64,000 nt of DNA from the NCBI RefSeq assembly GCF_014200595.1, contig NZ_JACHCG010000003.1, forward strand, positions 534,084 to 598,083. Direction: 5' to 3'. A program made the position numbers and the translations under genes. Shown here piece by piece: positions 5,160-23,530 of this stretch; position 1 is the first letter of the stretch, and every line of letters begins with the position of its first letter. The notes under the pieces are model-generated. The model did no database searches. It was not told the origin of the DNA and was given only the letters and a program-made list of their open reading frames with translations. This stretch comes from Pedobacter cryoconitis. Its GTDB lineage: Bacteria > Bacteroidota > Bacteroidia > Sphingobacteriales > Sphingobacteriaceae.

Positions 5160-5199
5160 AATTTATTCTTTGTTAACCTGGAGCGGTTATGATTTATTC

Positions 5200-6174: not shown

Positions 6175-6211
6175 TTTTTTTGTTTTAATTAATAGAATGG
6201 AAATAGGGCTA

Positions 6212-7201: not shown

Positions 7202-7232
7202 AAAAAATTAATTAAGATGTGCCGTGAGTTAA

Positions 7233-7973: not shown

Positions 7974-7982
7974 AAGTTTAGT

Positions 7983-8798
7983 TTAGTCGATCAGAGAATT
8001 GATACCGGTAACCATTTCTTTCGCTTCCTCAAAACTTTCTGTGGAATACAGGCAGTTTTGCAGATCAGAAAAGTTGAATGCTGCTTCTGGAGATGCGCCG
8101 GTTAGTGGTTTAATAACCATGGTGCCCTTAGCAATCTGTTCAATTTCGAATGGTGAGGCTACCAATGCTGCACCATAAGCGTTTGTAACGTCTTGATTTT
8201 TGATGATTCCGAATTCGATAATCCATAGCGCCATACTGTTGTAATAGTAATATGGTGTAGGAGATGCCTTCATTGCTGCCTCAGCAGCTTCAATCTCCGC
8301 TAAAATTTCATTTCTTTCTTCGGAAACAGAACGGTGCAGCGCCAGATATTCATGATCTCTTGGCTCTAGTTCGATTGAACAGATAAAGCCGCTTAGCTCA
8401 TCCAGAAAAACCGAATATGCAGGATTAACCAACATTGGACAATGTCCAACAAGGTCATGGATCAAATCCGGGAAACTGGCGAAATCCAGTTCATCAGCCG
8501 GTCTGACATTGATGTTAACAGGTATTTCCCGTGCTTTTAAATGCCCGAAATAAGCAGCACCAGATAAATAACCTTCTACATATACTGGCTTCCATCCCAC
8601 TGCTGCTAATTTTTCAGTCAGCGATTCATAGGAAAATGTATCCTGTTCCGGATATAAGTAATTGAAGCCATCTATGTAATCACTGTGATAGCATTGACGG
8701 TACTTTTCTACAGATAATGCTTGTTTCTGAAGAAATAAATTAATGAGTTGAATTGCGCTTTGATCAAAGCAACTTGGGCTGAACATGGTTGTTTTCAT
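7983..8798 (-). CDS. Aromatic amino acid hydroxylase family protein (non-heme iron, pterin-dependent)
   Basis: The 271 residues match the catalytic domain of the phenylalanine/tyrosine/tryptophan hydroxylase family. The motif DLIHDLVGHCPML supplies the two iron-binding histidines (H114, H119), and LWIIEFGI near residue 195 supplies the likely glutamate ligand. The spacing H119-E195 is about 35 residues longer than in phenylalanine hydroxylase; the extra segment is a charged helix around residues 145-180. In this operon it would supply Tyr or meta-Tyr, or hydroxylate a related aromatic residue, for the assembly line; which ring position it attacks cannot be read from sequence. It follows the FAAL-NRPS gene after 90 bases. 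Confidence 0.87.
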   Translation of the reverse strand: MKTTMFSPSCFDQSAIQLINLFLQKQALSVEKYRQCYHSDYIDGFNYLYPEQDTFSYESLTEKLAAVGWKPVYVEGYLSGAAYFGHLKAREIPVNINVRPADELDFASFPDLIHDLVGHCPMLVNPAYSVFLDELSGFICSIELEPRDHEYLALHRSVSEERNEILAEIEAAEAAMKASPTPYYYYNSMALWIIEFGIIKNQDVTNAYGAALVASPFEIEQIAKGTMVIKPLTGASPEAAFNFSDLQNCLYSTESFEEAKEMVTGINSLID

Positions 8799-8888
8799 TT
8801 TAATTTTTTTTAAAATGCGACAACTGGTGCCGCATGCGGGATTGAATTAAACTGTTACTTATGTTGATCAGGGAGGAGGATGCAAATG

Positions 8889-11800
8889 TTAAAATAAGGA
8901 GTCCAGTTCTTCCTGGTCCAGCGTTACTGCATCAAAATCTGATGGTGTAAAATGCTGTTCATCCTCATTTTTAATGTGGTAAAGAATACTCTCGAGCTTA
9001 GAGAAAAACAGCTCCATGAACCAGTTCATAGTAGATTCCTGATGTGCTTTTTGATTATAGGTCAGCTCTGCACTCAGCCCGCCAGCCACAACCATGCAAT
9101 TCAGTTCTAGTTTCGCGGTCATTTTATTTACTGGATCAGTATCCCTTCCGGTTGATTGACTGCTGTAGCTAAAAAGATCATTGTTCAGTTCTTTATCAAA
9201 CTGTCCGAGGTAATTAAACCTGATTTCAGTTTGCTGAGCCGGGGTTAAATCAGGGGCACTGCTATATTTTCGAACACCATATCCCAATCCTTTACCAGGG
9301 GTGCTGGCCAGCTGTTCTTTCACTGATTTGATCTGCTCATTTAATGAGCCTGAAATCAGCTCAATTTTAACTGGATACATGGCTGTAAACCAACCTAAAG
9401 TCCTGGAGAGGTTCAAACCATCCAGGTGCCTGCCATGATTTTCTTGTTCTATAATGAAAGTATGTTGTAAAGTCCACTCTTTTAAGGTAAGTGCGAGCGC
9501 TGTATTTAACAATACAGGGACATCTGTCTGATAAATATGGTGTGCTTCTTTCAACAGAAACGCAGTATTTTTGTCGTCCAGTACACGGCGTATTTTTAAG
9601 GCATTTTCAGCACTCCAGTCCATTGTTTCTGATTCCACAGGGATCTCAAATTTTCTTTCTGCCAAAGCAGACCAATGTGCTTCTTCTTCCTTGATTTCAT
9701 CGGATGAAGCGTATTCAGCCAGGGCTGTTTGCCAATCTTTCAAGGAAGCTGTTTTAGCAATTGTTATCGTTTCTCCATTCAACAGGGCATGATAGAAATT
9801 ATATAAATCTTCTAATAAAATCCTCCAGCTCAATCCGTCTACTAATAAATGATGTGCTGTTAAAAACAACTTTTCATCACCCGCAGCATCTGTAAACAAT
9901 GCGGCTTTAAACAGCAGGTCTTTTTGAATATCAAAACTGCCTTTAATCATTTCACAAGCAGATACAAAAGTAGCAGCTGTTGTTTCCAGGCGCTCTACAA
10001 TGAAGTTTTCCGCTAAATGACTGCTATTAAAGAATAACTCTTTTTGATCAGCGTCATAATTCATCCTTAAGCCATCATGTTGTTCTACCAGCTTTACGAA
10101 TGCCTTTTCCAGTAAAGAGAGGTCAAGCTCCCGGTTTAATTTCAGTAAAATAGATTGATTGAAATAAGCCGGATTTTCGAAGTCCTGCGTAAAAAACCAG
10201 GATTCTATTGGAGACAAGGTCTTTTTACCCTGAACAGGTTCCTGTTCATATTGATCAGCCAGCACCATTACAGCCTTTGCGCTGATACTCGCTATAGTAT
10301 GATAAGTAAGGATATCTTTAACATTTAATGAAATCCCCTGGTTGTATAATCTGGATACGATTTGTACAGCTTTAATAGAATCGCCGCCAAGCTCAAAAAA
10401 GTTATCATAAACAGTTAGTCCTTCAGCGCCTAATACTTCTTCCCAGATCACCAGGGAAATTTCTTCGATCTCACTCTGTGCTCTTTCTGTTGGTATGGTT
10501 TGTTTACTATGTCCCGGTTCAGGCAAAGCAGCAAAATTGACTTTGCCATTTTGAGTTAAAGGAATTTCATCGAGCTGTACAAAATAGACAGGAATCATAT
10601 AGTGAGGTAATTTTCCTGCCAGGTGATTCCTTAAATCATCGTCAGAAACCGGCTCTGATAAATCCCTGCTGATATAATAAGCACACAAAACTTTCTGATT
10701 TTGAGCAGTTGTAATCAGTGTGACTACAGCAAAAGACACTGCGCGATAAGCTGTTAAATGTTTCTCAATTTCCTGAAGTTCAATTCTGTAACCATTGAGC
10801 TTAACCTGCAAATCATGACGTCCTATATAAACAATATTGCCATCAGGAAGCTGTTTGGCTATATCTCCTGTTTTATACATTTTTTGTCCTTTAACAAAAG
10901 GATCAGTGATAAATTTTTCAACGGTTAGTTCTTCGTTAAATAAATACCCTCTGGCCAAGCCATCTCCCGCAATATAGATTTCACCATGTACCCCTGTTGC
11001 TACAGGTTTCAGGTATTGATCCAGAATATAGATCCTGGTATTATTTGCCGGAATACCAATCGGCACATAGCTTAGATCCGTGTCAGGATCAGCCTTATAA
11101 ATCATACACCCTACTGTAGCCTCGGTAGGTCCGTATTCATTAAAGATTTCAATATCATGCCCCATTTGAGTAAACAGGTCTTTAACGAGCTTCACGTCCA
11201 GATCTTCACCCCCAACAATAAATCTTCTGATACTGCTTTTTGAATTCAGCAGGTTACTTTCTAAAATCAGTTTAAGATGTGAAGGGGTTAGTTTAATAAT
11301 ATCCGACTGATTTGAACCGATTATTTCTTCCAGACACAGGTCATCTTTATAAATAAGGATTTTATTACCGGTAATTAATGGCGTAAAAATCGAAGTCACC
11401 GTTAAATCAAAAGAGACAGAGGTAAATAAAGGAAAAGTTGATTTTTCAGCACCCACATAACTTTTCGCCGCCCAAAAAATATAATTAACCAGTGATTTAT
11501 GCTCAACCATTACACCTTTAGGATTGCCCGTAGTGCCAGAAGTATAAATTACATAAGCCAGGTCATTTGATTTCTTACTATGGATAGGCTGTTGATTAGA
11601 GAAAATTGATAAATCAAGCTCATTCACTAATACCATTTCAATATCAATCAGCTCACTGAATCTTTTTTGTGTGCCACTACAATCTGTGAGACCGAACTTG
11701 CATTGGCTATTGGTTAATAAGTAACTGATTCTGCTTTCTGGCAAATCTATAGCTACTGGTAAATAAGCTGCGCCTGTTTTAAGGATAGCGAGGATACTGA

Positions 11801-14800
11801 TGATCATTTCAGGGGAACGTTGTTGCAAAACAGCAATGATACTCCCTGGTCTGGCGTCTTTTTTATGCAGATAATTGGCCAGTCTGTTTGCACTATCATT
11901 TAATTGCTGATAGGTCATGGTGATTCCATCAAATTCAATTGCGATAGCTTCCGGGGTTTTAACCGCCTGATCTTCGAACAATTGGTGGATTTTCTGAGTC
12001 GCAGGGTAATCAGCTTTCAATTCACTAAAACGCTCCGCATAAAATTCAAGTTCATTTGTTTTTAAGACAGACAATGCTGCAATTTCGGTATCAGCAGTGG
12101 TAATGATCTGTTTGACCAGATTTTGAAAACTGTCAGCAAACTGAAGAATGGTTTCCTTTTTAAAAAGGCTGGTGGCATATTCTACCCCATAAACAATCGC
12201 CTGACCATACTCGAAAACCTCCATAGATAAATCATATTTGGAGAAACCCGGATCAAAGAAATATCTTTCATAGGTAAAGTCCTGATTTTGAACAGCGGGT
12301 AAGCCCATATTCTGATAAATAAACATCGTATCAAACAGTTTATTTCTGCTGGCATCATGTTGTTTACCACTGATCAGCTGGATTAAATCATCAAAAACAT
12401 AATCCTGATGCTTTAAAGCATTCTTCATCTGCTGATTCACTTCCTGTAAAAACGAACTGAATGTTTCTGTCCCTTTGATTTGTGTACGAAGTGCAAGACT
12501 GTTGACAAAAACACCTTGCATTTGTTGTAAATCAGGATGATGACGTCCTGAAACCGGGATACCGGTCATCAGATTTTCCTGACCAGTATATTTAGCAAGC
12601 AGCACATTATAAACCGCAAATAACAAGACATGTAAAGTACATTGATGCTGCGCAGCAAATTCTTTAAGTTTCAGCGTGGTTTCCTCACTTAACTCAAATT
12701 CAATTTTGCTGCCTTTTTTGTTGAAAACTGCCGGGCGCTGTGTATCTAAAGGTAATTCCAATACAGGAATTTCACCTTTCAACTGTTCACGCCAGTATTG
12801 ATCTGCTAAATGATTAGTGTCTTTTAACAGCCCTTTTTCCCAGGCTGCATAATCTTTATATTGAATGGATGGTTTAACCACATCATTCCCACCATAAAGA
12901 CTAAATAACTCCGTGATAAAATTATAGATTGAAATTCCATCAGAGATGATGTGATGAAAATCAAAAAACAGATATTGTTCTAAACCCGCAGTCACTAAAG
13001 TGATATTGAATAATGCCCCGGTATTTAAATTAAAGGGTCTAACAAGCGCTTTCAATGTAAGATCAATTTCAGCCGACCCGGTTATTTCCAAAGTCCCGAT
13101 TTCAAATTCAAGTTGCTCATGAACTGTGAATCCAGGATCTTCCTGCAATTCAAAATTCATTCTTAAAGCATCGTGTCTTTTGATCAGTTCAGTAGTGCAG
13201 GCCTGTAATTGAGCTGCATCTATTTTTCCGCTTAATTTTAAAGCCAGCGGAATGTTGTAAGCTACTGATGTTCTGTCAAGCTCCCACAGATAGTAAAGTC
13301 TTTTTTGAACAGAAGAGGCCGGATAAATTCCCGCAGCAGCAGTAATTGCTATTGGCTCATAGCTTTGCTCTTCTAATTGTGTAATTTCTAAAGCCATCAT
13401 TTGTATAGTTGGCTTTTCATATATTTTTTGAATCGGGAGTTCTACTTTGAACTCCTTCAGACATTTCATACTTAATTGTGCTGCTTTCAATGAGTTTCCA
13501 CCCATTTTAAAGAAGTCAGCAGTGGAACTGGTCATATCAGTTTTTAAAACATCGCTCCAGATCTTTGCTACACGGGCTGCAATTCCAGTATGGATTTCAG
13601 TTAATCCGGTATCCATTGTAACTTCTTCCGACAACTCCTGGATTTTAACCTTAACCTCATCAAATACCCCTTTGTTAAATTGATCACGCAGCACAAACCG
13701 TTGTAATTTCCCACTGGTTGTTCGTGGAATATTTTTAACTGGAATAATATGATCTGCCATGAACCCTGCTCTGCTGTTAATCAGTGCTGCTGCTTTTTTA
13801 TAAACAGGCATAAAACATTCCAGCGAGCCTCTATGGAAGATGAAAGCAACCGTTTCATCTCTTTGCGTATCCGGATTAAAGTATCCGGTTACGACCATTT
13901 TATTCAGGCCAACACCTGGTATTTCTTCTGCCACAGCTTCAATATCATGTGGGTAGAAATTCTGGCCATTGATAAAAATAATATCTTTTGCTCTGCCCGT
14001 AATGTATAATGAGCCATCTTTAAAGAATCCCAGATCGCCTGTTTTTAACCAGCCATCTGCTACTAATATTTTTGAAGTTTCGATCGGGTTATTGTAATAG
14101 CCCTGCGTCACATTATCCCCTTTAATCTGGATATGACCAATGGTCAGATCTGCAACCTGATTGTTATCCTCGTCAGCAATTCTAACCGAGCAATCACTAA
14201 CCGGCTTGCCTACATTGACAAAAGAGGCTGCATCTTCAGGATTCACATAAGAGATATGATTTCCAGGGTTTAGTTTATTTCTGTCCAGATCGACCCAATT
14301 CACTTCGTCATCCATATGCGGGATAGTCACTGCCAATGTCGCTTCTGCTAAACCATAAACTGGGCACATTGCCGCCGTTTTTAAACCATAAGGCAACATA
14401 TTAGCTAAAAACTCATGGCATAATTTTACGGATACAGGTTCTGCACCGTTAAAGATTAACCTGACTTTAGAAAGGTCCCAATTTTGAGGCGCTTCAGTAA
14501 TACAGTTTTTCAAAATATAACTATACCCAAAATTTGGAGAGCAGAGTACTGTAGTTTGATATTGACTGGCCTTATCCAGCCACAAGCCCGGACGACGGAT
14601 AAAAAGATTGGTAGGAATCAGGTATTGATTCATTCCGGCAAACAACGGATTCAGGTGGAAACCAATCAACCCCATATCATGGGTGAGCGGCATCCAGCTG
14701 ATCATCGCATCATTAGTTGTATAACTGCCAGCTTTACTGATCGCGTTGATATTGGTAACCAGATTTTTGTGGGTCACCATTACTCCCTTTGGATTACCGG

Positions 14801-15314
14801 TAGAACCTGAAGAAAACTGAATAAAGGCAATATCATTTTCCTTTACGTCGTGTATTTTTCCATCAGGGCCTTCTGCTAAGACTGCCGTTTCATTAATAAT
14901 TCTTCCGGCGATATCAGCAAATAAATTTTCATAGTCTTTTTCTGCCAGTTCAGTTAAACGCTTCAGATTATCGGCATGGATAACCAGGTAAGGGTTATTC
15001 AGCACTGGCCATATATTGAATAATTTTTTCTTATGTTCTTCATTCTGCCCAACTGACAAGGGCACAGGAATGATACCGCCTAAAATACAAGCCCAGAAAA
15101 CAATAATAAAAGTCCTGTTACTGTCGATCTGAAAAACAAGTTCGTTTCCAGGCTTCAGCCCCATTTCCTGTAAATTATGTAATGCTTTAAGCGAAGAATT
15201 ATAGAGTTGTCCGTAAGAAAGAAATACCTCAGTATTTCCACCATCTATAAAGGTTATTCCTTTATTTTCAGTATTCTTTCTTTGTTCAAATACGGCAATA
15301 AGATTAGTCAGCAT
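8889..15314 (-). CDS. FAAL-ACP-C-A(Asn)-T-E lipopeptide initiation NRPS
   Basis: This 2,141-residue protein carries, in order: fatty acyl-AMP ligase (residues 1-560, FSSGSTGNPKG near 168), acyl carrier domain (MGGNSLKAAQ near 601), condensation (HHIISDGIS near 788), adenylation (VIYTSGTTGNPKG near 1253), carrier (LGGDSIKAVQ near 1640) and epimerization domain (HHLLVDGLSW near 1818, NYLGQFD near 2031). Reading the ten Stachelhaus positions by eye gives D-L-T-K-I-G-E-V-G-K, one residue from the asparagine code DLTKLGEVGK. The predicted product on the second carrier is N-acyl-D-asparagine. There is no thioesterase, so the chain passes to another protein, probably the C-A-T-KS-AT protein. It follows the type II thioesterase gene after 36 bases. 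Domain calls are firm, Asn is likely, the acyl chain length is unknown. Confidence 0.96.
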   Translation of the reverse strand: MLTNLIAVFEQRKNTENKGITFIDGGNTEVFLSYGQLYNSSLKALHNLQEMGLKPGNELVFQIDSNRTFIIVFWACILGGIIPVPLSVGQNEEHKKKLFNIWPVLNNPYLVIHADNLKRLTELAEKDYENLFADIAGRIINETAVLAEGPDGKIHDVKENDIAFIQFSSGSTGNPKGVMVTHKNLVTNINAISKAGSYTTNDAMISWMPLTHDMGLIGFHLNPLFAGMNQYLIPTNLFIRRPGLWLDKASQYQTTVLCSPNFGYSYILKNCITEAPQNWDLSKVRLIFNGAEPVSVKLCHEFLANMLPYGLKTAAMCPVYGLAEATLAVTIPHMDDEVNWVDLDRNKLNPGNHISYVNPEDAASFVNVGKPVSDCSVRIADEDNNQVADLTIGHIQIKGDNVTQGYYNNPIETSKILVADGWLKTGDLGFFKDGSLYITGRAKDIIFINGQNFYPHDIEAVAEEIPGVGLNKMVVTGYFNPDTQRDETVAFIFHRGSLECFMPVYKKAAALINSRAGFMADHIIPVKNIPRTTSGKLQRFVLRDQFNKGVFDEVKVKIQELSEEVTMDTGLTEIHTGIAARVAKIWSDVLKTDMTSSTADFFKMGGNSLKAAQLSMKCLKEFKVELPIQKIYEKPTIQMMALEITQLEEQSYEPIAITAAAGIYPASSVQKRLYYLWELDRTSVAYNIPLALKLSGKIDAAQLQACTTELIKRHDALRMNFELQEDPGFTVHEQLEFEIGTLEITGSAEIDLTLKALVRPFNLNTGALFNITLVTAGLEQYLFFDFHHIISDGISIYNFITELFSLYGGNDVVKPSIQYKDYAAWEKGLLKDTNHLADQYWREQLKGEIPVLELPLDTQRPAVFNKKGSKIEFELSEETTLKLKEFAAQHQCTLHVLLFAVYNVLLAKYTGQENLMTGIPVSGRHHPDLQQMQGVFVNSLALRTQIKGTETFSSFLQEVNQQMKNALKHQDYVFDDLIQLISGKQHDASRNKLFDTMFIYQNMGLPAVQNQDFTYERYFFDPGFSKYDLSMEVFEYGQAIVYGVEYATSLFKKETILQFADSFQNLVKQIITTADTEIAALSVLKTNELEFYAERFSELKADYPATQKIHQLFEDQAVKTPEAIAIEFDGITMTYQQLNDSANRLANYLHKKDARPGSIIAVLQQRSPEMIISILAILKTGAAYLPVAIDLPESRISYLLTNSQCKFGLTDCSGTQKRFSELIDIEMVLVNELDLSIFSNQQPIHSKKSNDLAYVIYTSGTTGNPKGVMVEHKSLVNYIFWAAKSYVGAEKSTFPLFTSVSFDLTVTSIFTPLITGNKILIYKDDLCLEEIIGSNQSDIIKLTPSHLKLILESNLLNSKSSIRRFIVGGEDLDVKLVKDLFTQMGHDIEIFNEYGPTEATVGCMIYKADPDTDLSYVPIGIPANNTRIYILDQYLKPVATGVHGEIYIAGDGLARGYLFNEELTVEKFITDPFVKGQKMYKTGDIAKQLPDGNIVYIGRHDLQVKLNGYRIELQEIEKHLTAYRAVSFAVVTLITTAQNQKVLCAYYISRDLSEPVSDDDLRNHLAGKLPHYMIPVYFVQLDEIPLTQNGKVNFAALPEPGHSKQTIPTERAQSEIEEISLVIWEEVLGAEGLTVYDNFFELGGDSIKAVQIVSRLYNQGISLNVKDILTYHTIASISAKAVMVLADQYEQEPVQGKKTLSPIESWFFTQDFENPAYFNQSILLKLNRELDLSLLEKAFVKLVEQHDGLRMNYDADQKELFFNSSHLAENFIVERLETTAATFVSACEMIKGSFDIQKDLLFKAALFTDAAGDEKLFLTAHHLLVDGLSWRILLEDLYNFYHALLNGETITIAKTASLKDWQTALAEYASSDEIKEEEAHWSALAERKFEIPVESETMDWSAENALKIRRVLDDKNTAFLLKEAHHIYQTDVPVLLNTALALTLKEWTLQHTFIIEQENHGRHLDGLNLSRTLGWFTAMYPVKIELISGSLNEQIKSVKEQLASTPGKGLGYGVRKYSSAPDLTPAQQTEIRFNYLGQFDKELNNDLFSYSSQSTGRDTDPVNKMTAKLELNCMVVAGGLSAELTYNQKAHQESTMNWFMELFFSKLESILYHIKNEDEQHFTPSDFDAVTLDQEELDSLF

Positions 15315-15350
15315 AGTGAAATATGATTAAGATTAGGATGGAGAAGCGTG

Positions 15351-16052
15351 TTAGGCTAAAGTGTTGTTGATTATTTTGGTAATCTGTGTTGTTTCATCAT
15401 GCAGAAAGAAATGTCCGCCGTTGAAATAGTAGGTAGTACAAAGTTTATGTGTGTGTCTTTTCCAGCTGTCACACTGTTCAGCAGTTAAATCTTCATCTTT
15501 TCCTAAAAGAATGCTGAGCTGATGATCGAGTGGTCTGATTACTGCATTGATATCTTCCGATTCGGATAACCTGAAATCATTTCTCAATAAAGGCAGGAAC
15601 AGTTGCATTAATTCAGGATGTTCAAAAAACTCAGGTGGGGTACCACCCAGTTTAACTACTGCTTCCAGGAATTCCTGTTCATTCATCAGATGATATTTCT
15701 TTTTATCATCTCTTTTGATTCCCGGTGCACCGCGGCCTGAAAGGAATACGTGAACCGGCTGCGAAACCTTCGCTTCCCTGATTCTTTGGGTCAGGTGATA
15801 AGCTAACATAGCGCCCATGCTATGTCCGAATATAGCGTAAGGAGTTTGGGTGATATCTTTGCTGATAAAGTTGAAAATATCTTCAACAGCCTCAGGGATG
15901 TTCTGATAATATTCCTCATGCATCCTTCTTCCCCGGCCGGCCAGTTCAATCGGAACCAGTTCAATGGATGAGTGCAGCTGCTGACTCCATTTATTATAAA
16001 TTATGGCAGATCCGCCCGCATAAGGGATACAGAAAAGTTTCATCTTCTTCAT
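15351..16052 (-). CDS. Type II thioesterase (assembly-line editing)
   Basis: This 233-residue alpha/beta hydrolase has the TEII hallmarks: CIPYAGGSA near the N terminus (oxyanion region), nucleophile serine S78 in GHSMGA, and a late catalytic histidine in NGGHFFL near 216. Type II thioesterases remove stalled or wrong acyl groups from carrier domains. Its start codon overlaps the stop of the 92-residue gene (ATGA), so the two are translationally coupled, and the NRPS gene follows at once. Length is typical of the family (230-260). Confidence 0.93.
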   Translation of the reverse strand: MKKMKLFCIPYAGGSAIIYNKWSQQLHSSIELVPIELAGRGRRMHEEYYQNIPEAVEDIFNFISKDITQTPYAIFGHSMGAMLAYHLTQRIREAKVSQPVHVFLSGRGAPGIKRDDKKKYHLMNEQEFLEAVVKLGGTPPEFFEHPELMQLFLPLLRNDFRLSESEDINAVIRPLDHQLSILLGKDEDLTAEQCDSWKRHTHKLCTTYYFNGGHFFLHDETTQITKIINNTLA

Positions 16053-16327
16053 TCTGCACTGGTGTTAAATTCTACGCGCCATTCCAATGGAGAAAGGCTT
16101 TTATCTGCGTTTATTTGATATTGTATGCGCTGGTGAATTCCAAGTTCCTGCCATATTTCATCCAGTTTCGACTCATCTGTTGGTGTCAAAAAGAATACTG
16201 CGGCAGTTAAACGGGTTAAAACTTCTTCATAAGGCACATGCCACGCTGTAATCAGTTGTTTTGTTTTTAAAACTTCCAGGTGACTTTTCACTTCGTTGAT
16301 TTCAGGTACATTTCCAATTTGTTTCAT
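16049..16327 (-). CDS. Unknown 92-aa protein at the head of the NRPS operon
   Basis: I do not recognise this protein. It is small, acidic and soluble, with predicted helices and no cysteine. The C-terminal half (residues 45-92) contains TPTDESKLDEIWQELG, followed by a segment that may form strands. It is not an MbtH protein, as the MbtH tryptophan pattern is missing. It lies 141 bases after the NusG paralog and overlaps the thioesterase start by four bases, so it is made together with the assembly line. A partner or regulator of it is conceivable. Confidence 0.72.
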   Translation of the reverse strand: MKQIGNVPEINEVKSHLEVLKTKQLITAWHVPYEEVLTRLTAAVFFLTPTDESKLDEIWQELGIHQRIQYQINADKSLSPLEWRVEFNTSAE

Positions 16328-16468
16328 GTTGTCTTTTTTTAATAATTAATAGTCAATAGTATGCTGGGTCCACAGCTTCGCTGAGGGCAATCACATTTGG
16401 AATGTGCACCTTTGATTTTTAAAATTTACAGGGTAATTACAGGGGAAGGGAACTCTTGACGGAGAGGA

Positions 16469-16990
16469 CTAGTTTACTAATTCTACTGGTCTGATGGAAG
16501 ACTGGTCAACTTCAAATGAAACAAATTGATTGAGGGTATCGATCTTTATTCCAAATCTTTTGCGGCCTTTTCTTTCGAAAACTACGCCTTTAAATCCTTC
16601 AAAAGGGCCATCAATGATATCTACTGTTTCTCCCATTTGAATACTGCGTTCCACAGTCAGGTCAGGTTCAACGTTTAATTTCCTGATGATATCGATATCA
16701 GAATCCGAAACAACAACGGGTTGTTTACTACAGCAAACATAATGTGATACGCCATAGAAATTAAGGATATCAAATCTTTCCTGTGGGGTTGTTTTCACAA
16801 AAATATAGTTCGGAAACAGGGCAACTTCAACAGTTTTTTTACGGTCACTCCATTGTTTAGTTACTTTTTGCACTGGTAAAAAGCAGGTAATATTTGCTCT
16901 TGACAAAGCCCTCTCAATATTTTTTTCCAATTGCGGGTAAGTGTAGACCACATACCATTTATTTGGGGAAGTAATTTGGTGGTTAATCAT
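16469..16990 (-). CDS. NusG-paralog antiterminator (UpxY/LoaP type)
   Basis: The 173 residues show an N-terminal NGN domain opening with WYVVYTYPQLEKNIERAL and containing ALFPNYIFVK, then a KOW-like segment around residues 118-145 (GETVDIIDGPFEGFKGVVF). Specialised NusG paralogs bind RNA polymerase at their own operon and suppress termination; in Bacteroides UpxY proteins do this for capsule operons and LoaP does it for antibiotic operons in Firmicutes. Its place as first enzyme-sized gene of a more than 17-kb NRPS/PKS operon fits exactly. It follows the 53-aa peptide gene by 52 bases. Housekeeping NusG is unlikely because the secE/rplK neighbourhood is missing. Confidence 0.9.
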   Translation of the reverse strand: MINHQITSPNKWYVVYTYPQLEKNIERALSRANITCFLPVQKVTKQWSDRKKTVEVALFPNYIFVKTTPQERFDILNFYGVSHYVCCSKQPVVVSDSDIDIIRKLNVEPDLTVERSIQMGETVDIIDGPFEGFKGVVFERKGRKRFGIKIDTLNQFVSFEVDQSSIRPVELVN

Positions 16991-17042: not shown

Positions 17043-17204
17043 TTAGAACATGATCCCTGAAGAAGTCAAAGTATCCGGAGAAGGACCAGTCGTTGTTGCT
17101 GTAACATATCCATTGTTCTGACCGGTAGAAACCTGAGCAGAGAATTTACTGATGATTTGTTTTTGGATGCTAACTGTTGCGATTTTGTTGCCTTTCTTTT
17201 TCAT
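17043..17204 (-). CDS. RiPP-like precursor peptide, 53 aa, no cysteine
   Basis: The ORF starts with ATG at 17204 and ends with TAA at 17043. Residues 11-22 read VSIQKQIISKFS, the amphipathic leader pattern of Bacteroidota class I lanthipeptide precursors, and the C-terminal half is rich in Thr and Ser (YVTATTTGPSPDTLTSSGIM). It matches the 49-aa peptide on the other strand at the same leader positions and in the last ten residues (DTLT-x-S-x-x-M-x), where the cysteine of that peptide is replaced by isoleucine. Its promoter is nearly the same as that of the 49-aa peptide. It is first in the NRPS operon, 52 bases ahead of the NusG paralog. The function is inferred: substrate of the nearby LanB, or a signal peptide. 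Confidence 0.75.
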   Translation of the reverse strand: MKKKGNKIATVSIQKQIISKFSAQVSTGQNNGYVTATTTGPSPDTLTSSGIMF

Positions 17205-17564
17205 AATGTCTAGTTATAAATGAGTGAATAAGTTTGTTTATCTTTTTTGTTGAAACAAATATGTCCGATTAATACATCTAAAAAATATTTCTTCGACCAA
17301 AGTGAGAGTTTATAGTACAAAAGCATTTTTTGATTGCTTTTTTCATCAGTTAAGATCCTGAAATTTTCAAAAAACAGTCCTGGTAATTGACCCCTTACCT
17401 ACTTACACAAAAAATTACTGTTCCTTAATACAGCTTACACACAAACACACAAGTTACTAATTACTAAACAGTTACTACAAACACAACAGTTCTCTTAAAA
17501 GGATTTCCTTCAACACGAATAAAAGCATTACTTTAGCCTTAAGTAAATTTGATTAACCTGTTGA
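17205..17564. promoter_or_regulatory. Divergent control region between NRPS/peptide operon and the LytS/LytTR operon
   Basis: This 360-base stretch has no gene. Its left half holds the promoter and direct-repeat operator of the 53-aa peptide operon. The right half, up to the kinase start, is A/C-rich on the plus strand and contains two copies of AGTTACTA about 20 bases apart (near 17451 and 17470), which could be a second regulator site for autoregulation. No terminator was seen. Confidence 0.6.
17256..17323 (-). promoter_or_regulatory. LytTR-type operator and promoter of the 53-aa peptide/NRPS operon
   Basis: On the minus strand CTTTTG begins at 17323 and CTTTGGTCGAAG begins at 17302, exactly 21 bases later. 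The -7-like element CATATTTG (17263-17256) follows 33 bases after the TTGG. The same arrangement with the same spacings occurs ahead of the 49-aa peptide. Direct repeats two helical turns apart are the known binding mode of LytTR regulators. Confidence 0.75.
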
Positions 17565-18695
17565 ATGATAAAACCGTCTTACCTCACACCAAGATTAAAT
17601 AGATATAATACCTGGGTATCTAATATAAACTGGTCGAAAACTTATTCTTCCAAAGCACGAATTGCAATACACATAGTCATGTGGCTCTGTTTATCCATGC
17701 TGTATCTGGGAACCTATAACAGGTTTGATAAAAACCTGAGCTGGCTGCTTGCTACAAAGGATTTAACATCTGTGATGATCATTTTTTATAGTCTCTCTTA
17801 TTATGTGCTGCCTAAATTATTATTTAAAGGAAAAATTATCAGTACCCTGCTTTTTGCGGCGGTTGCTTATATCATTTACGGGAGCCTGACTTACCTGGCG
17901 ACCTATATCATCAATAACTTTTATGTTCCATCTGAGCGGCTGCAAACCTATGCACAAAGAATATTAGACCATGGTTTTGCGGGAGTATTAAGTTGGTGGG
18001 GTGTCAAGTTCTACATTCTGGATTTTCTGTATACAATTGCACCTCCGGTAGCTTTAAAATTAATGAAATCAATAGTTGACCAGAGCAATAAAAGAATTGT
18101 CCTGGAACGTGACAACCTCAATCTGGAAATTAATTTCCTGAAAGCACAGATCAATCCTCACTTTCTGTTTAATACATTGAACAATATTTACAGAATGGTC
18201 AATAAACAGGATCCAAATACCGCAGATATGGTTTTGCACCTTTCTGACCTGATGCGGTATACACTTTATGAATCCAATGTCGATAAAATACCTCTGGACC
18301 GCGAAGCACAATTCATTAAAGATTATCTTGAACTAGAACGTATACGTTACGGAGAAGAAGTCAGTATTACAACAGATATGGCCGAAGATTTCGGTAAAAT
18401 AAAAATTGTCCCGCTGATCCTGTTCCCTTTTATCGAAAATGCTTTTAAGCATGGGGCCGATGCTACAGTAGAAAATTCGTGGATTGAAATATCCGTCAAA
18501 CTGTTAGGGAATGATTTGCATTTTGAGGTAAACAATAGCGTCAGCCCTCATATTGGCAGTAAAAGTAATTTTGGAGGAGTAGGAATGGTGAATGTTAAAA
18601 AGAGACTTACCATCCATTATGCCGATAAATATAACTTATCAATTAAGCAGGAAAACGGGGCTTATAAAGTTAAACTTCAGCTAACTTTAAATTGA
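17565..18695 (+). CDS. LytS/YehU-type membrane sensor histidine kinase
   Basis: The 376-residue protein has four or five membrane segments in residues 35-170, a short coiled linker (NKRIVLERDNLNLEINFLKAQ) and the His_kinase motif INPHFLFNTLNNIY with the phospho-accepting histidine near residue 198. A HATPase segment follows (PLILFPFIENAFKHG; GGVGMVNVKKRL). There is no large extracellular sensor domain, so the ligand is probably sensed in the membrane, as for peptide-sensing kinases. It lies 54 bases ahead of the LytTR regulator and is transcribed away from the NRPS operon. Confidence 0.92.
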   Translation: MIKPSYLTPRLNRYNTWVSNINWSKTYSSKARIAIHIVMWLCLSMLYLGTYNRFDKNLSWLLATKDLTSVMIIFYSLSYYVLPKLLFKGKIISTLLFAAVAYIIYGSLTYLATYIINNFYVPSERLQTYAQRILDHGFAGVLSWWGVKFYILDFLYTIAPPVALKLMKSIVDQSNKRIVLERDNLNLEINFLKAQINPHFLFNTLNNIYRMVNKQDPNTADMVLHLSDLMRYTLYESNVDKIPLDREAQFIKDYLELERIRYGEEVSITTDMAEDFGKIKIVPLILFPFIENAFKHGADATVENSWIEISVKLLGNDLHFEVNNSVSPHIGSKSNFGGVGMVNVKKRLTIHYADKYNLSIKQENGAYKVKLQLTLN

Positions 18696-18749
18696 TGCCA
18701 ATTTCAAACAAAACTCATATATTTATTCCACTAATATTTGAATAGCACA

Positions 18750-19463
18750 ATGGGAATTAAATGTCTGATCATCGATGACGAACCTCTGGCAAGGGAGACT
18801 ATAGAAGAATATATAGCGAAGATTCCATCTCTCGAATTGGTAGCCAGCTGCAAACATGTATTTGAATCTTTAGAGTATATGAACAATGGAGATATCGATC
18901 TTCTGTTCTCAGATATTCATATGCCTGAAGTAAATGGTATTGACTTTATAAAATCATTACAGAATCCGCCCTACGTAATTTTCATCTCGGCCTATCCAAA
19001 TTATGCCGTAGATGGTTTTGATTTAGATGCGCTTGATTATATTGTTAAACCCTTTTCTTTTGAGCGGTTCTTAAAAGCAGTAAATAAGGCTTCCAAGGCA
19101 ATCTTCCAAAAAGCAAAGGTTGTTGTTGATGAACCTAAACCCATGCATCTTTTTGTCAAAGACGGTCATAAATTGCATCGGGTTATGTTTGAGGAAATCT
19201 GCTATGTAGAGGGAATGAAAGACTATGTGAAGCTTGTGCTTAAAGAAAGAGCTATTATAACACACCTGACAATGAAAAGAATTGAAGATCAATTGTCAAG
19301 TGATAAATTCATTCGGATACAAAAGTCATTCATCGTCAAAAAGGATGAAATCAAATCTTTTAACGGCAATGAAATTGACTTGTATAGTTTAAAAGAAAAA
19401 ATTCCGATTGGCAAATTATACAGAGATGCTTTAATGAAACATTTCGGCTTAAGCCCTGACTAA
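18750..19463 (+). CDS. LytTR-family response regulator
   Basis: This protein has a receiver domain (acidic DDE at 9-11, phospho-acceptor D55 in FSDIHMPE, conserved lysine in YIVKPFSFERF) followed by a LytTR DNA-binding domain (residues 130-237, with CYVEGMKDYVKLVL). I choose the ATG at 18750 (MGIKCLIIDDE), giving 237 residues, over a TTG 12 bases upstream. It is the cognate regulator of the LytS kinase just upstream and the best candidate to bind the two matching direct-repeat operators found upstream of the two small peptides. A terminator follows the gene. Confidence 0.93.
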   Translation: MGIKCLIIDDEPLARETIEEYIAKIPSLELVASCKHVFESLEYMNNGDIDLLFSDIHMPEVNGIDFIKSLQNPPYVIFISAYPNYAVDGFDLDALDYIVKPFSFERFLKAVNKASKAIFQKAKVVVDEPKPMHLFVKDGHKLHRVMFEEICYVEGMKDYVKLVLKERAIITHLTMKRIEDQLSSDKFIRIQKSFIVKKDEIKSFNGNEIDLYSLKEKIPIGKLYRDALMKHFGLSPD

Positions 19464-19486
19464 AAGGTTTTGCTAAAATAACCACT

Positions 19487-19541
19487 AAAATGCCTGGTCT
19501 GCCCCTGTTTAAATAAACCAGGAGACAGATCAGGCATTTTT
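19487..19541 (+). terminator. Intrinsic terminator after the LytTR regulator
   Basis: AAAATGCCTGGTCTG (19487-19501) pairs with CAGATCAGGCATTTT (19526-19540), with one G-T pair, and an inner CCTGTTT/AAACCAGG pairing is also possible. A short T run follows. It separates the two-component genes from the peptide/LanB unit. Confidence 0.8.
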
Positions 19542-19614
19542 ATTCTAATCGCTGCCACCGCTCCCCCTCCCTTCCTGATTTCAGTTAATCTGTTAAAAAA
19601 AGAGTCCAAACTAA

Positions 19615-19682
19615 CTTTGATACCAAAAAATTACGCTTTGGTCGAAGATATATTTTTAATCCGTTCAGAAGGAACATATTTG
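19615..19682 (+). promoter_or_regulatory. LytTR-type operator and promoter of the 49-aa peptide/LanB unit
   Basis: CTTTGA at 19615 and CTTTGGTCGAAG at 19636 are direct repeats 21 bases apart. The -7-like CATATTTG lies at 19675-19682, again 33 bases after TTGG. Around the -7 element both promoters share the sequence CATATTTGT-x-TCAACAA. The layout is the same as ahead of the 53-aa peptide, so both units should respond to the same regulator. Confidence 0.78.
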
Positions 19683-19730
19683 TATCAACAAGGACAAAAA
19701 AAGGACCTTTAACTTAATTGAATCAGCATC

Positions 19731-19880
19731 ATGAAAAGAAAAGCACAACAAACAGAAAATCTGAGCATTAAAAAAGAAATTATTGGTGTAATTTCTTCAG
19801 TTCATACAGCAGTGGTAAAATACAACACTATACCGAGCACGCCTGGAGATACACTGACGACTTCTACTTGTATGCTGTAA
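19731..19880 (+). CDS. Lanthipeptide-like precursor peptide, 49 aa, single Cys
   Basis: The ORF begins MKRKAQQTENLSIKKEIIGV. Leader residues 11-22 (LSIKKEIIGVIS) fit the Bacteroidota class I precursor pattern. The C-terminal part has nine Ser/Thr among its last 17 residues and ends GDTLTTSTCML, with one cysteine at position 47. It lies upstream of a full-length LanB dehydratase in the same direction, so it is the likely substrate: Ser/Thr would become dehydro residues and at most one thioether ring could form. No leader cleavage motif is obvious. The homologous 53-aa peptide on the other strand lacks the cysteine. Confidence 0.82.
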   Translation: MKRKAQQTENLSIKKEIIGVISSVHTAVVKYNTIPSTPGDTLTTSTCML

Positions 19881-19980
19881 GCAAAAATGTCTTTCCTTCC
19901 ACTGGAAAATTGAATCTATTCTTCAGCATCTCCTTTGAAACCACTGGCTGTTCTTTTGAATGCCCTGATAACACGTAACC

Positions 19981-20340
19981 ATGACATTAACCTGCATCAT
20001 CATAGAAGACGAGCCCCTGGCTCAGGAAATCCTTCAAGACTATATCTCTAAAAGAGGAGATCTTGTGCTTTTGGGTAAATTTAGCAACCTACAGAGTTTC
20101 TATAAGTTCAAGGAAGACAATATAGATTTAATGTTTATGGACATCAATCTCAGGGGGACTTCCAAAGATGAAGTGGAAGATTTATTTACCAAACACCGAA
20201 AGATTGTACTCGTTACGGCTTATTCTGTACAACAGTTACATGAATACGATTTAGATAATATCAGCCACATTTTGAGTAAACCAGTATCTTATGAAAAATT
20301 CTCTGAATGCATTGATAAAATTATTTTAAACAAGGTATAA
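19981..20340 (+). CDS. Stand-alone receiver-domain protein (LytTR-family-like receiver, no output domain)
   Basis: The 119 residues form one CheY-like receiver domain: acidic pair E9-D10, phospho-acceptor D54 in LMFMDINLRG, threonine in VTAYS, and lysine in LSKPVSYEKF. It ends there, with no DNA-binding domain, although its N terminus resembles the nearby LytTR regulator (IIIEDEPLAQEIL against LIIDDEPLARETI). It sits between the peptide and the LanB gene (28 bases before LanB). It may be a phosphate sink, a titrating partner of the LytTR protein, or a regulator of LanB by direct contact; none of this is shown by sequence. Confidence 0.88.
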   Translation: MTLTCIIIEDEPLAQEILQDYISKRGDLVLLGKFSNLQSFYKFKEDNIDLMFMDINLRGTSKDEVEDLFTKHRKIVLVTAYSVQQLHEYDLDNISHILSKPVSYEKFSECIDKIILNKV

Positions 20341-20368
20341 AAACAAAATTTCTGCTTAAATTCCTCCA

Positions 20369-23300
20369 ATGGTACAAGCAGTAATTTCTCCGTTTGATTT
20401 CTATCTATTAAGGTTACCGGCACTAAATATTGACCAGATTCATCAGCTGAATGAAATAACTGACAAGGATGATTTAGTTCAGGCTTTGTTTCAGATTTAT
20501 CAGTCAGTTGAAATACAGGAGGCTATTTACCTGGCCAGCCCGGAATTATTTGCCGAATTAAAAAAGTGGCTGAACCACCCTAAGCCGGGGACCGATGAAA
20601 AATTAATCCTTACCCTTTATAAATACTTGCTTAGAATGAGTACCAGATGTACTCCATTTGGTCTTTTTGCAGGTTTTTGCAGAGGAGAGATCACAGATCA
20701 GGCAACTGCTATTCAGCTTGAGCAAGATAAAAAACGTTTGATTAAGCATAACAGACTGGATATGAATTATGTTGCGGAAATAGCCGCTGCATTAAATCAG
20801 GAACCTGGAATCAAAACAAAACTCATCTTTTATCCAAATAACAGCCTTTACCTCACGAATGGTTTTTACCGGTACTATGAGTATACACTAAAGAATAAAA
20901 AGAGAGATTATTACCTGGTTTCTATTCAGTCAACCCCTTATATTGAATGTGTTCTGGACGTTGCAGCAAATGGAGGCAAGTATACCGACATCATAAATGC
21001 ATTGCTCAACCTTTCGCTTACCGAAGAGTCAGCTTATATATTTTTAGACGAGGTCATTGAAACTCAGTTGATTTTATCTGAACTGGAACCTACTTTAACA
21101 GGCCGGGAATTTTTCGGGGTCCTGACAGAAAAAACCCGGGAGATAGATCAGCATTGCGGCAAACTTCCAGGCTTGTTAAAAATCGCTGAGATCCTGGATC
21201 AGGAACAAAATCTTATCCAGTCTTGCCAGGCTATCGAGCAAATTATACAGGATGATTTTCCTTTGGCCAAAAGCAAGGATCTTGTTCAGACAGACCTGGA
21301 AATTAAAATGCGTAAGAACATACTGAATAAAAGAACTATAGCTGTATTATCCACCGAATTGAGTGAATTGAGCGCTTTATACAACGGCGCCCCTCCTGCT
21401 GACCTTGAAGCATTCAGGAAAAGCTTTTACGATCGTTACGAAGGAAGGGAGATCCCACTGCTGGAGGCTTTAGATACTGAAGCAGGTATAGGCTACGGGA
21501 AATATAAAGGAGATAGCACAAATTATACACCACTTATTGATGATGTAAAGACGCCCTTAAATAAAAAGGAAACAAATATCCGCTGGTCTGCTTTCAAAGA
21601 ACTGGTATTCGGCAAATACCAGGAAAGCCAGTATTCAGGAAATCAAACGATTATATTGTCTGAAAATGATCTGCAACAATTGAATGTTGCAATAGGAAAC
21701 ATGCCTTCCACTTTATATAGTGTAGGTAGTTTTATTGCAAATAGCCCTGCTGACATTGATGCTGGAAATTTTAAGTTCAATTTATCTGTATTCGGAGGTC
21801 CATCTGCGATTCCACTCTTAGGTCGTTTTGCCACAGTGGCCGAAGGTTTAAACGGAAAGGTAAGGGAGAGTGCTGCTGCCGAACAAAAAGCGCATGAAGG
21901 TGCTATTTTAGCTGAAGTAATCCACTTACCAGAAGCCAGGATCGGAAATATATTACAGCGCCCGCAGCTCAGGGACTATGAGATTCCTTTTCTGGGGAAG
22001 TCTTCGGTAGCTCCGGAGTTTCAGATTCCTGTGACGGACCTCATGGTCTCAGTTCAAAATAATAAGGTTGTACTTCGCTCTAAAAGACTTAATCAGCTTA
22101 TTATTCCAAGATTAAGTTCCGCACACAATTATACCAATGGCATTTCCATCTATAAATTTCTTTGCGATTTACAGCATCAGGACAATTCTTTCTCGATTAG
22201 CTGGGATTGGGATGTACTGACCAGTAAAGAGTTTTTACCAAGAGTAACCTATAAACATATCATCTTGTCAAGAGCCAGATGGGCAATCAACTCTTCCGTT
22301 TACAAGGAGCTTAAGGATTTGCCCGCCGAAGAAGCTTTACAGCGGCTTAAAACGAGATATCAATTGCCTTCAAGGGTATTGCTTACCGAAGGGGATAATG
22401 AATTATTGCTTGATTTCAATTGTCCTTATGCGTTACAGCTGCTGCTACAGCATTTAAAGAAACGCGATGCAGTACTTTTCGAGTTTTTACAGGAGAAAGA
22501 GCACCGGCTGATTACAGATACTGCAAATTTATCTTACCTGAATGAGGTCATCCTTCCATTCTCCACATCAAGACAGTTCACTTATAAAAATTTACTGACA
22601 ACTGCCCCTGTTCAGACCTTGCAGCGCTCTTTTCCTTTGGGTACGGAATGGACTTATGTTAAAATCTACTGCGGATCTAAATCTGCGGACCTCATTCTTA
22701 CCGATTTCCTGCTTCCTGTGATCAGTTATCTGGAAGAGGCCGCAATGATTGAAAAATGGTTCTTTATTCGCTACAATGATCCGGACGGACATTTAAGGCT
22801 AAGATTCCTGCATACCAGGAATGCAACGATCACTGCTCAGCTGATCACAAGTATTCAGGAAAGCCTGAAACCTTTGCTTGATCAGCGGATTGTTTATAAA
22901 ATTCAATATGAGACTTATGACAGGGAGATTGAACGTTATGGGGAGCGTACAATGGAATTCAGTGAAACTATTTTTAATCACGATAGTACGGCCGTCATCA
23001 ATTTCCTGAGTTTAATAGAGGGTGTGGAAGGGGAAAGATATCGCTGGTTATTTGCACTCAGAGGGGCTGACCTGTTCATAAATGATTTTGGATTGACTGC
23101 TGAACAAAAGAAAACAATGATGGATGGATTATTTAATGGTTTCTTCCAGGAGTTTAGCGGAGACACTGAGTTAAACATGCAATTGAACGATAAGTACAGG
23201 GCCATCAGCAAAGAATTGAACAGTTTTATGAATCCTGAAAATGACGGGGAAGAGATTGCAGAGGCAGTTGGGTTTTTCGGGATACGCTCTCAGGCGATCC

Positions 23301-23530
23301 AGTCAGCATTATATAACCTGAGGGAAGTTACTATTGCAGAAGACCAGGATAAATTACAGGCCAGGTTAATGGAGAATATGTCCAGCTACTTACACATGTT
23401 CCTGAACAGGATTTTTATAGCAAATCAAAGGAAGCATGAGTTGGTGATTTATCATCATTTAGCTAAGTATTATGCTTCTGCGATTGCAAGGGAAAAATAT
23501 GGGCAGAAACAACAGCTATTGAGCAGCTAG
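20369..23530 (+). CDS. lanB: Full-length lantibiotic dehydratase (LanB, N-terminal plus SpaB_C domains)
   Basis: The 1,053-residue protein has the size of a complete class I LanB. The N-terminal glutamylation domain carries MSTRCTPFGLFAGF (residues 90-103). The C-terminal SpaB_C elimination domain starts near residue 755 and contains WFFIRYNDPDGHLRLRF near 796. These enzymes use glutamyl-tRNA to glutamylate Ser/Thr of a precursor and then eliminate glutamate to give Dha/Dhb. It is 28 bases after the receiver-only gene and about 490 bases after the 49-aa peptide. No LanC cyclase, leader protease or ABC exporter gene is visible nearby, so the end product and its export are open. Confidence 0.93.
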   Translation: MVQAVISPFDFYLLRLPALNIDQIHQLNEITDKDDLVQALFQIYQSVEIQEAIYLASPELFAELKKWLNHPKPGTDEKLILTLYKYLLRMSTRCTPFGLFAGFCRGEITDQATAIQLEQDKKRLIKHNRLDMNYVAEIAAALNQEPGIKTKLIFYPNNSLYLTNGFYRYYEYTLKNKKRDYYLVSIQSTPYIECVLDVAANGGKYTDIINALLNLSLTEESAYIFLDEVIETQLILSELEPTLTGREFFGVLTEKTREIDQHCGKLPGLLKIAEILDQEQNLIQSCQAIEQIIQDDFPLAKSKDLVQTDLEIKMRKNILNKRTIAVLSTELSELSALYNGAPPADLEAFRKSFYDRYEGREIPLLEALDTEAGIGYGKYKGDSTNYTPLIDDVKTPLNKKETNIRWSAFKELVFGKYQESQYSGNQTIILSENDLQQLNVAIGNMPSTLYSVGSFIANSPADIDAGNFKFNLSVFGGPSAIPLLGRFATVAEGLNGKVRESAAAEQKAHEGAILAEVIHLPEARIGNILQRPQLRDYEIPFLGKSSVAPEFQIPVTDLMVSVQNNKVVLRSKRLNQLIIPRLSSAHNYTNGISIYKFLCDLQHQDNSFSISWDWDVLTSKEFLPRVTYKHIILSRARWAINSSVYKELKDLPAEEALQRLKTRYQLPSRVLLTEGDNELLLDFNCPYALQLLLQHLKKRDAVLFEFLQEKEHRLITDTANLSYLNEVILPFSTSRQFTYKNLLTTAPVQTLQRSFPLGTEWTYVKIYCGSKSADLILTDFLLPVISYLEEAAMIEKWFFIRYNDPDGHLRLRFLHTRNATITAQLITSIQESLKPLLDQRIVYKIQYETYDREIERYGERTMEFSETIFNHDSTAVINFLSLIEGVEGERYRWLFALRGADLFINDFGLTAEQKKTMMDGLFNGFFQEFSGDTELNMQLNDKYRAISKELNSFMNPENDGEEIAEAVGFFGIRSQAIQSALYNLREVTIAEDQDKLQARLMENMSSYLHMFLNRIFIANQRKHELVIYHHLAKYYASAIAREKYGQKQQLLSS

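Follow-up and report, generated by a model that had tools for sequence, protein, structure and literature searches.

The window analysed here, a stretch of 64,000 nucleotides from Pedobacter cryoconitis (contig NZ_JACHCG010000003.1, genome G000 in our set), carries two short peptide genes, pep53 and pep49, which stand on opposite strands at the head of two gene runs. On the minus strand, pep53 (17043-17204, 53 aa, encoding a LanB-substrate-like peptide) is followed after 52 nt by the gene of an UpxY-family transcription antiterminator (16469-16990; NF033644, 140.7 bits, cut-off 100) and then by a long run of nonribosomal peptide synthetase (NRPS) and polyketide synthase (PKS) genes. On the plus strand, pep49 (19731-19880, 49 aa) is the first gene of a run that continues with a single-domain receiver of 119 aa lacking any output domain (19981-20340; Pfam Response_reg, 31.7 bits, cut-off 30.2) and a full-length dehydratase, LanB (20369-23530), with glutamylation and elimination domains (Pfam Lant_dehydr_N and Lant_dehydr_C). 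Between the two peptide genes, also on the plus strand, are encoded a LytS-type histidine kinase of 376 aa with a membrane N-terminus (17565-18695; Pfam His_kinase, 98.6 bits; hydropathy) and a LytTR-type, LytR/BtsR-like response regulator (18753-19463; NCBIfam BtsR 126.5 and LytR 106.8 bits, neither reaching its cut-off). A terminator-like inverted repeat located after lytR (AATGCCTGGTCTG ... CAGGCATTTTTATT, 19490-19543) sets the LytS-LytR pair apart from pep49.

Two homologous peptides and the adjacent LanB

Pep53 and pep49 are homologous beyond chance. Their alignment extends nearly end to end with a BLOSUM62 local score of 54, a value reached by none of 5000 shuffles of the 49-mer (mean 22.8, maximum 45), and they are mutual best matches among the 278 open reading frames (ORFs) of 35-70 aa in the window, the next best scores being 31 and 36. 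Moreover, a hidden Markov model (HMM) built from the peptides of seven relatives, without the window rows, gives pep49 (E 1e-9) and pep53 (E 2e-9) as the two top matches among 592 window ORFs, the third being at 0.49. A sequence-only reading of this DNA had already called both ORFs and aligned VSIQKQII with LSIKKEII and DTLTSSGIMF with DTLTTSTCML, and all of this was recovered. It had also placed one peptide before LanB and the other at the head of an NRPS/PKS operon: pep49 does lie upstream of LanB, but with the receiver gene in between, while pep53 is followed by upxY and the minus-strand NRPS/PKS run, presumably on a single transcript. The receiver, UpxY and the promoter shared by the two peptide genes are new relative to that reading.

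Both leaders resemble the LxLxKx5L motif with conservative changes (VSIQKx5F in pep53 and LSIKKx5I in pep49, I, V and F being counted as L-like), and a pattern scan of 95 small window ORFs retrieved only these two as precursor-like. As pep53 has no cysteine and pep49 a single one in its last 25 residues, neither has the core of LanA-type precursors, in which cysteines and Ser/Thr can be joined into lanthionines. In NCBIfam and Pfam scans, the sole result for the two peptides was a colicin-Z-like match of pep53 (14.9 bits, cut-off 50), which we regard as due to chance. Regarding the dehydratase, Y86, R89 and R93 of the window LanB align with NisB Y80, R83 and R87, and H1009 with the histidine of the iH..NR motif, taken as NisB H961; all four are invariant in 13 LanBs, and the NisB substitutions Y80F and H961A are reported to abolish dehydration (PMC4341554). 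No LanC was matched in the window (two LanC references, phmmer, E 1e-5), nor did reference searches and the pattern scan retrieve a C39 exporter or double-glycine (GG) precursors. Four further LanB loci occur in the same genome (C1:349425-352442, C1:1423569-1426568, C1:3063861-3066707 and C7:124224-126941, with 39%, 34%, 27% and 28% identity, respectively), one of which (L046) has LanC and a C39 exporter; a LanC encoded elsewhere may hence act in trans.

The peptides form a small family whose distribution follows that of LanB. With a seven-row profile (the window pair and five relatives) searched against 148 genomes, seven strong matches were obtained in six genomes (two in G000 and one each in G022, G023, G077, G050 and G051; E<=5.1e-21, noise starting at 0.003), and LanB identity reaches 48% or more in precisely these six genomes, the next LanB being at 42%. 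Across these genomes the family is thus matched only beside one LanB clade. As the earlier reading had suggested looking for the small ORFs in related genomes, it can be stated that the family is kept beside this clade and that, within the fetched stretches, an NRPS run follows it only at the present locus. The earlier proposal that the peptides are LanB substrates is supported to this extent, by comparison: they belong to a LanB-clade-restricted family, have LanA-like leaders and are the sole precursor-like ORFs of the window. In protein databases, ten relatives were found, of which three are named, each as "hypothetical protein", from Pedobacter cryoconitis, Pedobacter petrophilus and a Sphingobacteriaceae bacterium. 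A metagenome record of 71 aa (P0004), trimmed to an inner methionine, matches pep53 at 51/53 residues, and another record (P0007) matches pep49 at 45/49. Among 11 within-clade pairs, the ratio of nonsynonymous to synonymous substitution rates (dN/dS, NG86 method) is 0.10-0.31 in eight, 0.80 and 1.00 in two, and without value in one; the pairs of the window with relatives give 0.13 and 0.28, at dS of 3.4 and 1.5, i.e., near or past saturation. A scan of viral contigs gave 171 pattern matches, with no relative confirmed among them.

A promoter shared by the two peptide genes

The regions upstream of the two peptide genes are themselves related. Over 300 bp they align with a score of 65, compared with a mean of 19.3 and a maximum of 57 for 1975 random window pairs. 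Both contain the operator TTTGGTCGAA (17292-17301 in the minus-strand promoter region of pep53, 17245-17330; 19637-19646 in the plus-strand promoter region of pep49, 19610-19700) and the -7-like element CATATTTG (about 17256-17263 and 19675-19682). In all nine promoters of this clade (clade 1; the two of the window and seven of relatives), the operator and the -7-like element are exactly 38 bp apart, start to start, the strings accepted for the latter (CATATTTG, TAnnTTTG or AATGTTTG) having been picked after inspection of the promoters; those of pep49 and G077 have one extra such string each. The pep53 promoter is close to those of G023, G077 and G022 (scores 151, 119 and 141), whereas that of pep49 scores only 55, 55 and 57 against them. 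The peptides behave likewise: pep53 shares 24-25 of 47-50 aligned residues with the peptides of these three genomes and pep49 18-19 of 45-48, while the G050 peptide is closer to pep49 (20/45 identical) than to pep53 (10/50). The two copies therefore seem to derive from different sublineages.

The operator is nearly unique in these genomes. Searched in nine genomes with at most one mismatch, the clade-1 pattern occurs once in G022, G023, G077, G050 and G051 and twice in G000, each time before a peptide gene; a one-mismatch match in G059 (C11:357824) is not linked to the peptide gene there. Matches with two mismatches were dropped, their frequency being that of a reversed-pattern control. A divergent-type operator marks one promoter each in G058, G059, G070 (as two overlapping matches) and G403, with the peptide gene downstream, and is absent from the four others of eight genomes; a third pattern is present once in G347 and once in G314, before the peptide gene, and in none of five others, for whose own operators it was not built. 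With these clade-specific patterns, an operator precedes the peptide gene once per genome in 11 relatives and twice in G000, where one copy stands before pep49-receiver-LanB and the other before pep53-UpxY-NRPS/PKS.

A more general property of these promoters, taken as a set, is a repeat spacing like that of LytTR sites. In 15 representative upstream regions, direct repeats at a spacing of 21 bp agree on average at 8.33 of 11 positions, compared with 6.2-7.33 for 23 other spacings; 8.33 was not reached at any spacing by any of 400 dinucleotide shuffles (best 8.00), and after removal of the five strongest groups the 21-bp spacing still averages 7.70 versus at most 7.20 elsewhere. Judging from the promoters and the gene neighbourhoods, LytR very probably recognises this operator and activates the peptide genes downstream of it. 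Separately, at L045 (about 6310-6380, minus strand) GAATTCGTCGAAATTTACTGT is found three times in tandem with a 21-bp period before the peptide gene, with two overlapping matches in the genome. Upstream of the peptide genes of L157 and L160, no 21-bp repeat stands out and a palindrome, TTGAGCGCTCAA/G, is shared; an ORF that is TetR-like by eye lies near the L160 peptide gene, and one of similar size is present at L157.

A proposed circuit and the possible origin of the window arrangement

To place the locus in context, 55 distinct LanB loci were compared (59 rows, four duplicates dropped), a non-random sample taken from the best LanB matches. A single-domain receiver and LytS-LytR accompany LanB in 22 of them; among the remaining 33, several have LytR-LytS without a receiver of this kind. 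The 22 comprise eight loci with LanC and a C39 exporter, ten, among them the window, in whose fetched flanks no LanC was found, and four, also without LanC, which are divergent in that LytSR, peptide and receiver point away from LanB. One of the ten, L148, carries GG precursors, and a LanC may sit beyond the 19.5 kb examined. LanC is thus found in 8/22, but a short peptide in 22/22 (23 peptides in total). In eight minimal loci, the ORF taken as this peptide was the one, among those of 25 aa or more on the same strand, that ends closest upstream of the receiver; all 22 tabulated peptides have 5-10 Ser/Thr in their last 22 residues, a trait partly selected for since a Ser/Thr-rich tail guided the choice in the loci other than the minimal ones. 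A cysteine occurs in the last 25 residues of only five of the 22 (one each, in pep49 and the four divergent loci). The N-terminal half of LytS is less conserved than the kinase half in 10 of the 12 pairs compared (three of 18 LytS, among them that of L162, were excluded because they could not be divided into halves); such divergence is usual for kinases and is not counted as evidence.

The closest relatives indicate what the window may have lost. LanBs of G022, G023 and G077 are 59-60% identical to that of the window, and their operons (Pfam having been run on the G023 locus only) encode in order the peptide, a GGGG peptide, GG-leader precursors, an outer-membrane beta-barrel protein, LanC, the receiver, LanB and an ORF of 160-170 aa, past which LytR-LytS lies on the opposite strand. 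Divergent from LytS there is the C39 exporter in these genomes but the pep53-UpxY-NRPS/PKS run in the window, which keeps LytS-LytR, the receiver and LanB and has two peptides. In a LanB tree (quick method, with support from the Shimodaira-Hasegawa-like approximate likelihood ratio test, SH-aLRT), 17 receiver-LanB loci form one group (support 98), L148 and the four divergent loci falling outside, and the window LanB groups with the eight LanC-bearing loci (support 100). The simplest reading is therefore that LanC, GG precursors and exporter were lost on the window line. The GGGG peptide corresponds to a second conserved small ORF (MKNDFFDLGNNDF...MVMGGGGDTN), whose first half ends in GGGG, after the peptide of the LanC-bearing operons L038-L042. 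Searches beyond this set were of limited yield: the LanB of L155, a minimal-type locus, searched class-wide at E<=1e-180, retrieved only its own genome among 395, which is uninformative beyond the family at that threshold, and a single-protein LanB scan of genome contigs gave one locus (Dyadobacter, L037). More distant LanBs at L020, L032, L033, L034 and L035 are accompanied by a convergent LytR-LytS pair, and their 1.5-kb flanks contain neither receiver nor LanC.

At the 21 other loci, what comes after the peptide gene within the fetched stretches is either GG-type precursors or receiver genes, which supports the view that a precursor-like gene heading an NRPS operon is unusual. The run led by pep53 continues on the minus strand with a thioesterase (15351-16052; Pfam Thioesterase, 151.6 bits), an NRPS of 2141 aa with two condensation, two adenylation and two carrier domains (8889-15314), tailoring or precursor genes (5200-8798: ornithine-cyclodeaminase-like, pyridoxal-phosphate-dependent, a 246-aa unassigned protein and biopterin-hydroxylase-like) and an NRPS/PKS hybrid protein running off the left window end (3-5159; continued in L109, L108 and L169). 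The pyridoxal-phosphate-dependent and ornithine-cyclodeaminase-like pair is presumably SbnA/SbnB-like. The run extends to about C3:481000 of G000, some 70 kb in total with gaps of up to a few hundred bases, and the proteins scanned in it include NRPS modules, PKS modules and an asparagine-synthase-like protein. Its GC content (39.6% in 1-16990, versus 37.7% in 17043-23530) gives no strong sign of foreign origin. At E<=1e-30, UpxY was found in two of 89 genomes, G000 itself and G002 (42%), where its neighbours, read by eye from ORFs, are contractile-tail and glycosyltransferase-like genes and not NRPS. Biopterin-hydroxylase matches occur in 55 of the 89 genomes including G000; the other 54 are only 21-27% identical and have longer open frames (374-628 aa), and are hence not regarded as orthologues. 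Elsewhere in the window, the segment 28704-36278 resembles a mobile or modification island, with a relaxase and a NikA/MobC-like mobilisation gene clustered together with a D12 adenine methyltransferase and two DndB-like genes.

A proposed ribosomal peptide circuit with a probable NRPS/PKS output

Taken together, these data suggest a peptide circuit that is wired to a second kind of natural product. The conserved circuit would consist of LytS-LytR, the single-domain receiver, LanB and a short peptide with an LxLxK-like leader and a Ser/Thr-rich, Cys-poor tail. We consider it fairly probable that both window peptides are LanB substrates in this circuit and that the NRPS run came under the same control through a second unit of promoter and peptide. 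LanB would dehydrate Ser/Thr in the peptide tails; since no LanC is present in the window, a linear product would be expected, or at most one ring in the case of pep49 with its single cysteine. The pep53 unit, which is the copy closest to the relatives' peptide, heads the UpxY-NRPS/PKS run, and the identity and near-uniqueness of the operator point to this run as a second output of the circuit. Most likely, pep53 is a regulatory or co-produced peptide and not part of the NRPS product. That the LanB-modified peptide is an autoinducing cue sensed by LytS is plausible; the earlier suggestion that the peptides signal to LytS is consistent with the shared operator and the constant linkage to LytS-LytR, while the idea of a signal pair is weakened by the finding of a single such peptide in each of the 21 other loci. 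The receiver might, speculatively, be a phosphate sink for LytS. An extension of this explanation, which we advance only tentatively, is that Sphingobacteriaceae possess a pheromone system in which LanB dehydrates, without LanC, a Thr-rich and Cys-poor peptide sensed by LytS, and whose outputs have been exchanged from lineage to lineage. These would be GG-type lanthipeptides in some, the peptide operon as such in others and, in the present genome, an NRPS/PKS run acquired by means of an additional promoter-plus-peptide unit.

Several observations weigh against this explanation. The single promoters of pep53, pep49, G347, G161 and G219 score only 7/11 for the repeats, and the promoter looks different in G161 and G219; the Ser/Thr-rich tails are in part a product of peptide choice; the dN/dS values of 0.80 and 1.00 both concern pairs of G023 with clade-mates; and no peptide exporter was found in the window, where the only match to a C39 exporter is a weak one of 60 bits in a 233-aa ORF. 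In the relatives, the operator is found only before the peptide operon, which fits equally well a self-induced product, i.e., dehydrated peptides that are themselves the secreted bioactive compounds, induced as nisin is, the NRPS product being merely made simultaneously. The operon of eight loci, seemingly limited to peptide, receiver and LanB, agrees with this possibility, which we nevertheless judge unlikely: the references used revealed neither an exporter nor an immunity gene next to the minimal loci, and the same peptide type comes first in operons already making GG-type precursors.

It is less likely still that the NRPS run was inserted by accident behind an existing peptide gene, LytR driving it and pep53 having no role. 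Such promoter capture would explain why the pep53 promoter is the relatives' peptide promoter and why close homologues of UpxY and of the biopterin hydroxylase are absent from nearly all 88 other genomes searched, as expected for an acquired run; however, pep53 is intact, the nearly identical metagenome record P0004 exists, and its dN/dS with relatives is low, albeit at saturating dS. The 52 nt separating pep53 from upxY could also be taken to mean that pep53 is a leader ORF or RNA element which loads UpxY or sets translation, its protein being irrelevant, but we give this little credence because its leader and tail are conserved as protein with peptides linked to LanB in genomes for which the search gave no UpxY homologue, and the gap folds into no stable hairpin (-1.1 kcal/mol). 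Finally, a hybrid in which the NRPS product is coupled to modified pep53, as the place of pep53 in the same gene run might suggest, is most improbable since no NRPS follows the peptide within the fetched stretches of the 21 other loci, a paralogue remains with LanB and the genes scanned include no recognisable joining enzyme.

If the circuit indeed put the NRPS run under its control, a ribosomal-peptide circuit would switch on a nonribosomal pathway, and the LanB-made peptide or lytR expression would offer a direct handle on an NRPS/PKS cluster of Pedobacter-like bacteria that is probably silent; under the pheromone extension, a LanB-modified autoinducer would control a nonribosomal antibiotic. 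A small peptide family is also defined here, and the question is raised of what LanB makes without LanC. The module of receiver, LanB, LytSR and peptide is unnamed in the titles and abstract openings of the literature searched, although Caetano 2020, on the lanthipeptides of Pedobacter lusitanus, may describe it.

Among known systems, class I lanthipeptides of Bacteroidota, as described in PMC7268733, have LanA precursors with LxLxKx5L leaders, often with a GG site and a C39 protease. The window peptides share with them an LxLxKx5L-like leader and an adjacent full-length LanB, and GG precursors, along with LanC and a C39 exporter, are part of the operons of the closest relatives; the window peptides differ in having no GG site and tails with no (pep53) or one (pep49) cysteine, the window in lacking LanC and the C39 exporter and in having one peptide copy at the head of an NRPS/PKS run. 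As in the nisin system with NisB and NisRK, in the parts covered by PMC4341554 and PMC8895600, LanB, peptide and two-component system are united in one locus, and autoinduction would follow an analogous logic; unlike nisin, LytS-LytR and a LytTR-type operator replace NisK-NisR, an extra single-domain receiver is present, no LanC is needed and sensing is hypothetical. The promoters of the LytTR system reported in PMC6193735 contain 9-bp repeats with 12-bp spacers, and here too direct repeats with a 21-bp period lie upstream of the presumably regulated promoter, but their sequence is another one and they are a statistical property of the promoter set, weak in single promoters. Lastly, the NusG paralogues UpxY, TaA and LoaP sit inside the operons they serve, which for TaA and LoaP are polyketide antibiotic operons (PMC7593976). 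In the window, too, a very long run has an UpxY-family gene close to its start; in contrast to the UpxY cases presented there, which concern capsule operons, a peptide gene with a lan-type promoter precedes upxY.

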